A stretch of DNA of 36,279 bases from Akkermansiaceae bacterium. GTDB lineage: Bacteria; Verrucomicrobiota; Verrucomicrobiia; Verrucomicrobiales; Akkermansiaceae. Below are positions 7,352-12,854 of the stretch, in pieces. Below the pieces are notes generated by a model. The model had not been told where the DNA came from. It worked only from the letters and a program-made list of their open reading frames with translations, and searched no databases. Both the position numbers and the translations under genes were made by a program. Where the stretch lies: positions 1-36,279 of the forward strand of contig JAKMGP010000041.1 of the NCBI GenBank assembly GCA_022424905.1. The letters are read 5' to 3'. The stretch's first letter is position 1. Each line of letters begins with the position of its first letter.

Positions 7352-8854
7352 TTAAGGTGAGTGCGGCGGTTTTTTTCTTGAGATCATAAACGTACTTACA
7401 AACAACCCGGCCAGAAAAATGGTTAAGGTTCCGACGACAATCGTGAGGTTGCTGTGAATCATGGGTTGAAGCTTTTTAGGAATCCACGAGGAGCTAAGCC
7501 AGAAAATTATGATGATACCTAGGGTCACTCCGGTGGCTGCGGCTGCGTTTCCTGCCCTCTTCACAATGAGTCCGAGCAGAAATAGACCCAGCATGCCACC
7601 GGCGAAGATACCTGACAGTTGCCACCAGATATCGAGGATATTCTTGGTCTTGCTGGTGAGGAGCAGAGCTGTGCTGGTTCCGATGATGCCCCAGAAGACG
7701 GTTGAAACTCTCAAGACCAGTATCGCCTGTCTTTCAGTGACGGCTTGCCTACGGCGAAATAGCCGAGTCCAAAGATCTTTGAGTGTGATTGTAGCCGAGC
7801 TGTTCAGGCTTGTGTCGATTGTGCTCATGGCTGCGGCAGCAAGTGCGGCGATGATGAGCCCGCCAAGACCGGTTGGCAAGTGGTGAGCCATGAAGTGGGG
7901 TAGGATTGAGTCTTCAAACTTGCCTTCTCCGGCCATTTTCTGGATGGCTGCGATCTCCTCGGGCATGGACTGGTAAAAGCTGAAGAGTAGGGATCCAATC
8001 AGGAAGAATAAGAGTGAAACTGGGAGGTAAAGCATCGCACCGATCCACAGCGAACGGTTTGCGTCGTCGTCGTTTTGGGCGGTATGGTAGCGCTGGATGT
8101 AGTTTTGATCGATGCCGAAATTTGTCAGGTTGATGAAAAGTCCGTATACTAAAACAATCCAAATAGTGGAGCTGGCTAGGTCGGTTATATTCCAGCTGCC
8201 GAGTGAGAATTTTTCGTTGTCGATGGCGATCGCAAACGCGCTTGATGCACCATCTGGATGCTTGGCGAGGATAGTGACAATTACCAATATCGCTCCCAGC
8301 GTGAGAACGATTGATTGGATGGCATCGGTCCAGATCACCGCTTCGATTCCTCCGATCAAGGTATAGGCGGTGACTAGTATTCCGGAAACAAGGATGATGC
8401 TGGTGAGATCCCAGCCGGTGATTTGCTGTAAGCCGATAGCTACTCCAAGCATGATGGTTGCGGTGCGCGCGATTTGGGTCAGGAGATAGCAGATTACGGC
8501 ATAGACCCGAGCCCAGACGCCAAAGCGTTTTTCGAGGTGCTCGTAGGCCGAAATTTCACCGGTGTCGCGGTAGAATTTCACGAACCACTTCGTAGCGATG
8601 AGAATCGCGATCGGAATGGAGAGTGAAAACACGAAGGCGTTCCAGTTTCCGGCATAGGCTTTGCCAGGTACGCCGATGAATGTATTCGAAGAGAGATAGG
8701 TTCCGAAGAGGCTGAGCCCGATGACCCATCCGGGTAAGCGTCCGCCTGCCTTCATAAAACCCTCAGAAGTTTTGCTGCGGCGAGCGAAATAGAACCCAAT
8801 GCCTAAGACGATGGCGAGATAGGCAGTGAGGACGATGATGTCGGCTGTCTTCAT
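7352..8854 (-). CDS. Sodium/solute symporter (SSS family), sialidase-linked
   Basis: A 500-residue SSS-family Na+-coupled symporter with about 13-14 hydrophobic segments. Typical landmarks are 'GFMKAGGRLPGWVIGLSLFG' (family N-terminal motif), 'GGIEAVIWTDAIQSIVL' (helix 5 region) and 'ALAAAAMSTIDTSLNSSATI', the conserved Na+-site Ser/Thr-rich helix 8. The start at ATG 8854 is chosen because it has AGGAGG 10 bases upstream (8865-8870) and forms an ATGA overlap with the stop of the sialidase-like gene. A GTG at 8863 lies only one base from that AGGAGG. Translational coupling to a glycan-active protein suggests transport of a released sugar, perhaps a sialic-acid-like one; the substrate is inference. 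The C-terminus ends at an A7 run, with an open frame continuing on the other side (see findings). Confidence 0.93.
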   Translation of the reverse strand: MKTADIIVLTAYLAIVLGIGFYFARRSKTSEGFMKAGGRLPGWVIGLSLFGTYLSSNTFIGVPGKAYAGNWNAFVFSLSIPIAILIATKWFVKFYRDTGEISAYEHLEKRFGVWARVYAVICYLLTQIARTATIMLGVAIGLQQITGWDLTSIILVSGILVTAYTLIGGIEAVIWTDAIQSIVLTLGAILVIVTILAKHPDGASSAFAIAIDNEKFSLGSWNITDLASSTIWIVLVYGLFINLTNFGIDQNYIQRYHTAQNDDDANRSLWIGAMLYLPVSLLFFLIGSLLFSFYQSMPEEIAAIQKMAGEGKFEDSILPHFMAHHLPTGLGGLIIAALAAAAMSTIDTSLNSSATITLKDLWTRLFRRRQAVTERQAILVLRVSTVFWGIIGTSTALLLTSKTKNILDIWWQLSGIFAGGMLGLFLLGLIVKRAGNAAAATGVTLGIIIIFWLSSSWIPKKLQPMIHSNLTIVVGTLTIFLAGLFVSTFMISRKKPPHSP

Positions 8855-11787
8855 TCCGGCCACGCCTCCTCATTCAGGACCATGCCAGGCTGCAGATTTT
8901 CAGGATTAATGATCACGTGCTTTACCCGCTTGCGGTTCCAGGTGTAAGTCATGTGAACAAGCCCATCCTTAGTTTGAATCATCGCCGGGTAGGAAAATTC
9001 TCCTTCTTTTGCTTTTTCGATCACTGCCAGAGCTTTCCACACGATTCCGTCCTCGCTGACTGCTAGATGGATGGCATGCCGTTTGCCCCAGCCATTGTTG
9101 CCTTGCCCGCCGAGGTGATTATACAGGAGGAGATGCCGGCCGTCTGCCAGAGTCAGAGCCTCGATGCCAGAGTTGTTGTTGGGAAGGCCGAGCTTTTTAA
9201 GGGGGCTCCAGCTTTCTCCGCCGTTCTTTGATTCATTCGTGATGATGGCCCCATGTTTAGAGCGATAAAGGGCCTGGATCCTTTGGCCGGGGTGGGTGAG
9301 TAGGGTTGGTTGAATGACCTGAAAGAGCTGCTGTTGTGGCTCAAAGCGGGACCATTTACCGTCGTTTAGTTTCTCAAAGTGAAAACGCCACTCATCATCG
9401 TGCTCTGTGGATGAGGGGCAGAGCAGCGTGCCATCTTTAAGTCGTATTGGTTTTGATCGAACTGGCCCATCAATCTCTTCGGGAAGGCGTTGCGCGGGTT
9501 GGAAAGAGCGGCCGCGGTCGTAGCTAAGCATCAGTTCACCCCACCATTCTCGTGGATTGGGGCCGACCTTGAAAAAGAGCATGAGCGGCTGATTGGCTTC
9601 CGGTTGGTAAAGGACAGGATTCCAGCAAGGGTAGCGAAGGTTTTTGTGCTGCAAGCCGTCAGCCCATTGGCGAGGGGAGGACCAGCGCTTCCCGTCGTGG
9701 TAACTCGACCAGATACCGACATCCGGGTTTTTTTCTTTGGTGCCTCCGAACCAAGCGGCAACTAGACCGCGCGAGGTTTGTGCGAGTGTTGAGGCATGGC
9801 ATTCCTTGTGGGGGGCATTTTGGAAGATAAATTCTTCGCTGATAAGCCCTGAGAAACGTGGGGGAGTGACTTCTTTCGGCTTGCGAGGTTTCAGTGTTGA
9901 GGGTGGATAAGATACGCAGTCTTCATGCTTGATAAAATAAAGTCGCCCGTTCTCCGATCCGATGATCAGGTCCGGTTTCCCGTTCCTATCAAAGTCGCAA
10001 ACCGTCGGGCTGCTGGTATGGCCGGACACATCTCGTTTTGCGAGATTACCGATCTTTTTAAGTATGACCTTCCCGTCTCCGGCATCCTCGCAATTTCTCC
10101 ACCAAGTCGTATTTTGGGAATTCGTTAGGATGTCGAGTCGCCCGTCTCTGTCCCAGTCGACCACCGCAAGTTTTACCCGGCCGGAGCCTCCTGCTGTGAT
10201 GGCGTTGAGTCTCACCGGTTGAAGATCTTCATCAAGAAAGAGGCGGGTTTCCTTTCGAGCCCGGCTCTGGCAGGTGAGGAACCCCTCTTGGTCGAGTATG
10301 ACGAGATCGAGCTTTCCGTCCCCATCAAAATCCGTTGCGAGTGGGGTTGTTCTCCATTGAGTCTGCAGGTTTTCAGCAAGGTTTTGCCACCAGTAGAAGG
10401 CCGGTGGTGCCTCCTTTGACCAAAAGGAAAGAGGTTCTTGAGTAAGGCCGCTTCCAGTGTTGCGTAGCAACTGAAGCTTGGGCCAGATGGAGTTGACTAG
10501 GATATCGTCGTGATCGTCATCATTCCAGTCTGCAACCGATAGGGTGGTGTAGCCCCACTTTGCTTCGGCAGGCCCCTGGATCGAACCATTTGCCCCCGCC
10601 ATAATCCGAAACACCTTATTGTCAGCTTTTAGTAATTCCGGAGCCGACCATTTCGTGCCTTTGCCATCGAGGTTAGTAAAGAGAGCAATATTGCCGGCGG
10701 TGTTTCCGCAAAGAATATCTTCGTCACCGTCTTTATCCCAATCGTGGGCAAATGGTGTGGCGAGTGCGCCGAACTTCAACTCGTTTGCTTCTTGTTGGAA
10801 GTAGACCGGTTGCTTGAAGACTGGAAGACTCGCGCCTTTTGGGGAGACATTTTCCACCAAGGCGACGCGTCCGTCTTCGTCACCGACAATAAGATCAAAG
10901 TCGCCGTCTTTGTCCCAATCGAGCGCAGTGGGCGTGATCATTTGCAAGTGCATGGCGAGAGCCTGTCCATCTGCGCCCACTAGTTTTAAGCCGGCGCCGT
11001 ATTCCGGGTTGGTGGCGGAGCCGATATTTTGGAAATAGGTGAAGCGATCAAGGAACTCTCCGCATAGCAAGTCAAGGTCACCGTCTCCATCAAAGTCCGC
11101 GAAGTTCGGGCTTGGCCAGCCATAGACGTCAATTGGTGCGCCACCAGCCTCGATTTTCACGGGATTCTTTGTGTATTTGCCACCCTCGTTCTTGATCAAG
11201 TAGACCCAACCGTGCAGTGGGCCATTCTGCCAGCGGCCTTGTGCATCATGGGCGTGATCCCATTCGTAGTCCGACCAGTCGCCGATCCCCACGATGAGGT
11301 CTTGATCACCATCCTGCTCCCAATCGATATAACGCCACATGTTCGCGCGGGTGCGGCCTTCGCCTTCGTGAATTTTTGAAGAGGGATAGATCTTGTCGAG
11401 TCGGCTGAATTGGTTGGTGCGGAAGTCGACATATTCCTGGTTTTCGCGCAGGATACGTGCTTCACCTTCGACATAGCTGATCTGAATATTATGACCGGTT
11501 TTTGCGATGTGAACGCCCGGTTTAAAAACCGGCATTTTGACTGAGGGATCTTGCGTTGGGTTTTCAAAAAAATAGAGGCCGTTGCTGGGCTTATCTGGGC
11601 ATGAGACGACTAAATCTAAGTCGCCATCTCCATCGTAGTCCATCGGTAGGGGCCAGGCCCAAAGCCCGACGCCGAGATCGACGATGAGATCGGCATTATT
11701 ATACTTCAGAGGCTGGAGTTTCCAGTTTTCGGCAAGTAATGAGCCAGAGATTAGGACGAGTAAGATGGGGGCGAGAATAAAATTCAT
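8851..11787 (-). CDS. Secreted FG-GAP/VCBS propeller fused to a sialidase-like (BNR) domain
   Basis: A 978-residue exported protein in two parts. After the signal peptide (MNFILAPILLVLISGSLLA) residues 45-620 hold nine calcium-loop FG-GAP/VCBS motifs: DYDGDGDLDLVV (50), DWEQDGDQDLIV (155), DFDGDGDLDLLC (231), DWDKDGDFDLIV (290), DWDKDGDEDILC (349), DWNDDDHDDILV (420), DFDGDGKLDLVI (486), DWDRDGRLDILT (544) and DFDRNGKPDLII (598). These form a beta-propeller like integrin-type adhesion domains. Residues about 645-970 resemble the predicted-neuraminidase group (COG4692/BNR_2), with 'HASTLAQTSRGLVAAWFGGT', the arginine-bearing 'GPVRSKPIRLKDGTLLCPSS' and Asp-box-like 'SKNGGESWSP' and 'SYDRGRSFQP'. 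Established: sialidase-type propellers cleave terminal sialic or related sugars. Inferred: the N-terminal propeller tethers or binds polysaccharide. The symporter overlaps its stop; the thioredoxin-like gene lies 98 bases upstream. Substrate not shown. Confidence 0.88.
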   Translation of the reverse strand: MNFILAPILLVLISGSLLAENWKLQPLKYNNADLIVDLGVGLWAWPLPMDYDGDGDLDLVVSCPDKPSNGLYFFENPTQDPSVKMPVFKPGVHIAKTGHNIQISYVEGEARILRENQEYVDFRTNQFSRLDKIYPSSKIHEGEGRTRANMWRYIDWEQDGDQDLIVGIGDWSDYEWDHAHDAQGRWQNGPLHGWVYLIKNEGGKYTKNPVKIEAGGAPIDVYGWPSPNFADFDGDGDLDLLCGEFLDRFTYFQNIGSATNPEYGAGLKLVGADGQALAMHLQMITPTALDWDKDGDFDLIVGDEDGRVALVENVSPKGASLPVFKQPVYFQQEANELKFGALATPFAHDWDKDGDEDILCGNTAGNIALFTNLDGKGTKWSAPELLKADNKVFRIMAGANGSIQGPAEAKWGYTTLSVADWNDDDHDDILVNSIWPKLQLLRNTGSGLTQEPLSFWSKEAPPAFYWWQNLAENLQTQWRTTPLATDFDGDGKLDLVILDQEGFLTCQSRARKETRLFLDEDLQPVRLNAITAGGSGRVKLAVVDWDRDGRLDILTNSQNTTWWRNCEDAGDGKVILKKIGNLAKRDVSGHTSSPTVCDFDRNGKPDLIIGSENGRLYFIKHEDCVSYPPSTLKPRKPKEVTPPRFSGLISEEFIFQNAPHKECHASTLAQTSRGLVAAWFGGTKEKNPDVGIWSSYHDGKRWSSPRQWADGLQHKNLRYPCWNPVLYQPEANQPLMLFFKVGPNPREWWGELMLSYDRGRSFQPAQRLPEEIDGPVRSKPIRLKDGTLLCPSSTEHDDEWRFHFEKLNDGKWSRFEPQQQLFQVIQPTLLTHPGQRIQALYRSKHGAIITNESKNGGESWSPLKKLGLPNNNSGIEALTLADGRHLLLYNHLGGQGNNGWGKRHAIHLAVSEDGIVWKALAVIEKAKEGEFSYPAMIQTKDGLVHMTYTWNRKRVKHVIINPENLQPGMVLNEEAWPE
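8865..8870 (-). promoter_or_regulatory. Shine-Dalgarno for the symporter, inside the sialidase-like gene
   Basis: On the minus strand AGGAGG lies 10 bases before ATG 8854 and only one base before the alternative GTG at 8863. It sits within the last codons of the sialidase-like gene and supports the ATG/ATGA start. Confidence 0.7.
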
Positions 11788-11885: not shown

Positions 11886-12854
11886 TCAGTTCTTCTTAGC
11901 CTCACTGATGAGCTTCGTTAAAGTCTTATCTAAATCTTCTTTTAACTGCCCCACATGTCTGATTATTCCGTTATGATCCAATACGTAGATGGTTGGCCAG
12001 CCCACGATGTCCCATTTGCTTGAAATCGGCCCCCCTGCTTTCCCATCTCGAAAATTACGCCAAGTAATCGTGCCATTTTTGACATACTTTGAGAGCCGCT
12101 CTGGAGGATCAGTGTTTACACCGACCAAAGCAAAAGGTTCGTCTTCCCACTTTTCAACGAGCGACCGCTCGTAGGGAAACATCGATCTGCAGGGCCCTCA
12201 CCAGATACCCCAAAACGGCAGGAGAACTACTTTTCCCCGATAATCGCTCAGGCGAAATCTCTTTCCGTCTTGATCCAACCCTTCAATCTCTGGCGCTTCA
12301 CAACCCACCACCAAGTGGGTGACCTTATATCTTAAATCCTTGATCCACCTCTGGAGAATTTCATCTAAATCATCCTCTTTTTCCAGCTTATCCAAAATGG
12401 TCACGACTGTCTGATTCTCCTTGGCACGTTCCGTATCTGTAAGCGTTAAGTCTCTTTGCGCGTCCTCTGCTACTAATAAGGCGAGTCGAAATTTGGCCCT
12501 TTGGTGAACGTTCCCACTCGGCAATTTCTTTATCACTGCTTCTAGTTGCTCCCTTTCCCCATAAAACCCCAAGATTTTTACATACTTCACCATCAATTGA
12601 TCATTCTCGGGGATCGACCAGATGAGATCTCCGACCTTCTTCCTTTCTTGGGCGTAGCCATTCTCGATCACCCACTCGATGACCTTAGTTACTCCTTCCT
12701 CCTTTAAATCACCCACCACTAGGTCAAGGACTGCCATAGCCTCCACCTCATTTTTCCTAGATTGATTGATGAGTTTGTTCGCCTCCGCCACGCCATCTCC
12801 AAGAGCCAGCCTTGTCAATAGGGTCATGATTAATATCGCCAATCGTGAAGTCAT
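11886..12854 (-). CDS. Thioredoxin-like (TlpA-type) protein, probable selenoprotein with in-frame UGA
   Basis: Read as one gene of 322 codons. The first 218 residues begin with a signal peptide (MTSRLAILIMTLLTRLALG), continue as a helical region to about 170, then enter a TlpA/AhpC-like fold: 'GCEAPEIEGLDQDGKRFRLS', 'DYRGKVVLLPFWGIW'. UGA (12198-12200) follows, and the same frame goes straight on with 'GPCRSMFPYERSLVEKW', 'FALVGVNTDPPERL' and the cis-proline segment 'GWPTIYVLDHNGII' (P287) to a second TGA at 11886. The redox motif is therefore W-UGA-G-P-C-R, where family members have W-C-G-P-C, so UGA stands at the more reactive cysteine, the classic selenocysteine site. Everything else is intact, and a hairpin suited to selenocysteine insertion follows. 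Alternatives are a recent nonsense mutation, a base error, or two separate genes from ATG 12182, which would lack the first half of the fold. TGA is an ordinary stop elsewhere here, so recoding of the whole genome is not the explanation. It probably acts in the periplasm as a thiol reductase. Confidence 0.72.
12157..12197 (-). promoter_or_regulatory. Candidate bacterial SECIS downstream of UGA
   Basis: Right after the UGA (12198-12200, minus strand) come 25 bases and then a perfect 6-bp stem ACGAGC/GCTCGT (12172-12167 with 12162-12157) closed by a GGUC loop (12166-12163). The loop starts 31 nt after the UGA. GGUC is also the core of the E. coli fdhF SECIS loop. The bacterial SECIS model, as I know it, requires an apical loop about 16-37 nt after UGA with a G in its first two positions; both hold. 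A weaker lower stem UUCCC/GGGAA flanks it. The hairpin also encodes conserved-looking residues (YERSLV), so coincidence is possible. Confidence 0.55.

Follow-up and report, generated by a model that had tools for sequence, protein, structure and literature searches.

A probable selenocysteine codon in a ResA/TlpA-like thioredoxin-fold gene from an Akkermansiaceae bacterium, followed by a nearly invariant hairpin

The stretch of DNA analyzed here (the window; 36,279 nucleotides of contig JAKMGP010000041.1 from an Akkermansiaceae bacterium) carries on its minus strand a gene, at 11886..12854, whose product is almost certainly a ResA/TlpA-like thiol-disulfide oxidoreductase with selenocysteine (Sec) as the attacking residue, probably secreted or anchored in the membrane, as judged from sequence comparisons and a structural model. 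The in-frame UGA of this gene (12198..12200, minus strand) is very likely decoded as Sec, because the codon is conserved among homologs, the genome has the sel genes, the downstream part of the protein is under purifying selection, and the UGA is followed by a hairpin with nearly fixed codons. Standard gene calling splits or truncates the gene at this active-site residue, and dozens of relatives from Verrucomicrobiota and Planctomycetota would suffer the same miscalling.

Under translation table 11, the gene appears as two open reading frames on the minus strand, 12854-12198 (218 amino acids) and 12182-11886 (98 amino acids), that have a common frame; between them lie one TGA (12200-12198) and a run of five codons, GGG CCC TGC AGA TCG. 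This arrangement had been described in an initial annotation made from the sequence, and a check of the reading frames and their translations bore it out. The selenoprotein frame runs from the ATG at 12854 to the final stop, TGA at 11888-11886, and the TGA at 12200-12198 is its sole interruption. When this codon is translated as U, the product has 322 residues, with Sec219 (the U of W-U-G-P-C) located within FWGIWUGPCR and Pro287 located within GWPT, the place of the cis-proline in this family. The N-terminal part (residues 1-183; 12306..12854) begins with a hydrophobic segment, MTSRLAILIMTLLTRLALG, which by eye is a probable signal peptide or anchor and which is conserved in the alignment of orthologs; it continues as an all-helical domain in the AlphaFold2 model. 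The C-terminal part (residues 184-322; 11889..12305) is a ResA/TlpA-like thioredoxin domain that contains Sec219, Cys222, and Pro287.

The assignment of the C-terminal domain rests on several comparisons. Pfam detects AhpC-TSA (PF00578) at residues 183-300 with 71.5 bits (cut-off 26) and also assigns Redoxin. The TlpA-like thioredoxin fold, the W-UGA-G-P-C-R motif, and Pro287 proposed in the initial annotation agree with this match and with the alignment. The AlphaFold2 model, built with 22 sequences, has a mean pLDDT of 85, and nearly the entire thioredoxin domain exceeds 90; ahead of this domain it shows only helices (residues 2 to 180), with low confidence before residue 40. Both Foldseek and sequence profiles placed ResA first, and TlpA, CcmG/DsbE, and StoA were among the further matches. 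ResA chains are the closest solved structures, with TM-scores of 0.82-0.86 (normalized by the ResA chains). None of the NCBIfam models scored above its curated cut-off: ResA (NF002854) reached 67.2 of 170, TlpA (NF047696) 49.8 of 230, and the ResA-like WAxxUGC model (NF041054) 35.8 of 300. Downstream of the gene, positions 8851-11787 of the window encode a 978-amino-acid protein that, by eye, resembles an array of FG-GAP/VCBS-like repeats with a sialidase-like part behind it. In a gene-order comparison, as far as the loci reach, this gene adjoins the selenoprotein gene in a related genome (G014) too, and the SGNH-hydrolase-like gene on the other side is common to G014 and two further genomes (G025 and G017).

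We searched for homologs in 193 related genomes and, in addition, in named genomes. Eleven orthologs, all from the same genus and with 64-95% identity, each contain exactly one in-frame TGA, at the identical codon, and no other frame damage, which is more than chance would give; in the window gene, too, the initial annotation had described the rest of the frame as undamaged. Approximately 30 further homologs in the genus, family, and order have TGA in the same W-U-G-P-C context; most of the nearer homologs keep it, and their frame is undamaged before and after it. Besides the 11 orthologs, about 50 more distant homologs from Verrucomicrobiota and Planctomycetota show UGA at precisely the Sec219 codon, which brings the total to about 60 loci in many genomes of two phyla. 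Other more distant homologs carry Cys (TGC or TGT) at this place, and one homolog of the family (L038, in G037) has WCGPC. Among the named genomes, Akkermansiaceae bacterium UBA5688 has the closest homolog (86%); Planctomycetota, too, often carry Sec forms. U219-G-P-C222 and P287 are invariant in an alignment of 18 sequences. A more distant Sec form (L035, G091:C1) has UGPS: Ser takes the place of the resolving Cys, and both the UGA and the hairpin are kept. On a tree of 84 thioredoxin domains, whose root is arbitrary and many of whose inner branches are weak, four changes between Sec and Cys are needed.

Strong purifying selection acts on the part of the protein that follows the UGA, as estimated from aligned coding sequences: in four ortholog pairs, dN/dS after the UGA was 0.075, 0.041, 0.049, and 0.050 (Nei-Gojobori; the values are rough in two pairs, where dS exceeds 1). 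In each of these pairs, dN/dS was higher before the UGA than after it.

The genome from which the window comes (G000) is a 4.05-Mb draft in 347 contigs, 92.8% complete and with 5.3% contamination, and it contains the full set of decoding components: SelA (488 bits, cut-off 268), SelB (a 652-codon frame; 312 bits, cut-off 242), SelD (381 bits, cut-off 125), and a tRNA-Sec whose anticodon is UCA (54.4 bits against a gathering score of 47), the last also reported by ARAGORN as tRNA-SeC(tca). The initial annotation had pointed to orthologs and to the decoding genes of the source genome as the places where its Sec reading could be checked. Both support it: orthologs have UGA at the expected position in intact frames, more distant homologs have Cys there, and selA, selB, selD, and tRNA-Sec were all found. 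The selD gene (L010, G000:C8:22286-23209) is itself interrupted by a single in-frame TGA (SCGGUASK). This is a second Sec site, of the type known from selenophosphate synthetases that contain Sec. Across the related genomes, selA is present in 26 of 27 that have the UGA form vs 64 of 166 that do not (Fisher p 4e-9, a test that ignores kinship). The single relative with the UGA form in which selA was not found (G001) has an 86% complete genome, in which selB is present.

The Sec reading is further strengthened by an element absent from the initial annotation, a nearly invariant SECIS hairpin. This hairpin, ACGAGC-GGUC-GCUCGU (12157..12172, minus strand), has a 6-bp stem and a 4-nt loop that starts 31 nt past the UGA; its folding energy is -7.9 kcal/mol alone and -8.4 kcal/mol with one more base on each side. 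The bacterial SECIS model described in PMC13188914 allows loops of 3-9 nt, upper stems of 4-16 bp, and spacings of 16-37 nt; it calls for a G in the first two loop positions and for a minimum free energy of at most -7.5 kcal/mol. The GGUC-loop hairpin lies within all of these constraints. Codons +11 to +13 are almost fixed in a set of 45 non-redundant Sec forms drawn from Verrucomicrobiota and Planctomycetota, as Arg CGG (45/45), Ser TCG (44/45), and Leu CTC (42/45), and most synonymous sites that neighbor these codons are variable. In the window genes, CGG accounts for 12% of Arg codons and TCG for 14% of Ser codons. Each of the six stem pairs is held in at least 43 of the 45 forms; covariation in the stem (L030 has A-U for G-C, and L034 has U-A for C-G) is thin because the hairpin sequence hardly varies. 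In ten Cys homologs that share the local protein motif, the Arg codon is CGC or CGG and the next codon is GAG, GAA, GAC, AAG, or GCG. The CGG-TCG pair is absent from them and Ser is replaced, mostly by Glu, Asp, or Lys; therefore, the hairpin appears to dictate an amino acid, Ser, in the protein.

The 71-nt region around the hairpin folds no more stably than shuffled sequence (z -0.11), so the case for the hairpin rests on its conservation and its fit to the model, not on stability. Scanning the surroundings of the UGA against Rfam with cmscan produced no hit. A search of the genome with the Rfam SECIS_1 model was empty as well but says little, because the controls also gave nothing. In one planctomycetotal locus (L084, JACRIO010000326.1), the UGA stands at the corresponding position, but the loop is GGGA and the Ser is replaced by Glu, as in the Cys forms; this locus may use a different SECIS, or it may be a gene losing Sec.

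Four exact occurrences of the pattern GAGCGGTCGCTC were found in the window's genome, the window gene among them. Two of the matches are at the ends of contigs C139 and C44 (L051, G000:C139:1-2500, and L052, G000:C44:39500-41094) and belong to a second such selenoprotein; because both contig ends carry the hairpin sequence, these loci are apparently two pieces of a single gene that the assembly has broken. The fourth match, on C173, is antisense to a long unrelated frame, and we took it as a chance occurrence. In four relatives (L064, L091, L095, and L097), two UGA codons are located nine bases apart, giving ULTU or ULAU instead of UGPC. These relatives have the same single hairpin downstream and form one supported branch of the tree. 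Another TlpA-like frame (L069, G010:C14) has an in-frame UGA in a WURGC motif and lacks the GGUC hairpin; it probably represents a separate selenoprotein subfamily.

Other explanations for the interrupted frame were considered. The UGA could be a true stop in a pseudogene or the product of a sequencing error that changed TGC or TGT to TGA, and one codon alone does depart from the normal reading. However, the same TGA recurs in all of the roughly 60 loci described above, independent assemblies carry it, and dN/dS after the UGA is 0.04-0.075, which makes this reading extremely improbable. It is also very unlikely that the locus encodes two proteins, a truncated one of 218 amino acids and one of 98 amino acids starting at the Met codon at 12182. 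Both frames are formally open, and this Met codon is ATG in 39 of the 45 non-redundant Sec forms, but the break would cut through the active-site motif, Cys homologs are one continuous chain, and the conservation of the hairpin would be left unexplained. Finally, continuation of the frame past the UGA would be expected if UGA were reassigned throughout the genome (e.g., to Trp) or read through by a near-cognate tRNA; yet TGA is the stop codon of 8 of the 27 confident window genes, the Sec machinery is complete, and the UGA aligns with the redox Cys rather than with Trp, so we give this possibility almost no credence. On this evidence, we rejected all three alternatives.

With UGA read as Sec, the GGUC-loop hairpin would bind SelB carrying Sec-tRNA(UCA), and the ribosome would then insert Sec219 rather than end translation. 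The 322-residue protein would be exported, Sec219 would attack a disulfide of an envelope substrate, and Cys222 would resolve the mixed selenenyl-sulfide. The protein would most likely act as a disulfide reductase of the ResA/TlpA type, either in the periplasm or anchored in the membrane; cytochrome c maturation or the repair of oxidized envelope proteins are candidate roles solely by analogy with ResA and TlpA. Relatives can be sought by a sequence signature, ERSLV encoded by GAG CGG TCG CTC GTN. Pairs of Sec and Cys forms with and without the hairpin offer a clean natural test of the bases that SelB needs, and the double-UGA forms could show whether a single SECIS is enough for two codons.

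Selenoproteins of this kind are already known in outline, as both TlpA-like UxxC and Prx-like UxxC/UxxU proteins have been inventoried. The relevant entries of one inventory list thiol-disulfide isomerase-like (cd02966, UxxC) and Redoxin family (PF08534, UxxC) selenoproteins (PMC13188914), and a Prx-like thiol:disulfide oxidoreductase selenoprotein (PF00578, UxxC or UxxU) is listed as well (PMC13188914, PMC1088965). In the main texts of open-licence papers, we found no description of the PVC-wide subfamily, its Ser-fixing hairpin, or the ULTU/ULAU variants. We are inclined to see in these loci an envelope selenoprotein subfamily that spans Verrucomicrobiota and Planctomycetota and is defined by a nearly fixed, protein-constraining SECIS (Ser in 44/45 Sec forms but Glu, Asp, Lys, or Ala among the Cys homologs), with a single hairpin serving two UGA codons nine bases apart in the ULTU/ULAU branch.

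Compared by description only, the cd02966 and PF08534 selenoproteins likewise have a TlpA-like thioredoxin fold with Sec first in UxxC, whereas their entries, as worded in that inventory (PMC13188914), include neither the helical N-terminal domain nor the near-invariant hairpin of the present protein. The Prx-like PF00578 selenoprotein, by its description in the inventories, has the Pfam domain and UxxC in common with it, and its UxxU form is as in the four double-UGA relatives. NF041054 is by its name a selenoprotein relative of ResA, but its motif is UGC rather than UGPC and, as noted, the present protein scores 35.8 against its cut-off of 300. With Bacillus ResA and rhizobial TlpA, the protein has in common the thioredoxin-domain fold, the W-x-x-C motif, and the place of the cis-proline, and it is expected to be located in the envelope, as they are; it differs from them in having Sec for the attacking Cys and about 180 additional residues that form a helical domain at the N-terminus.
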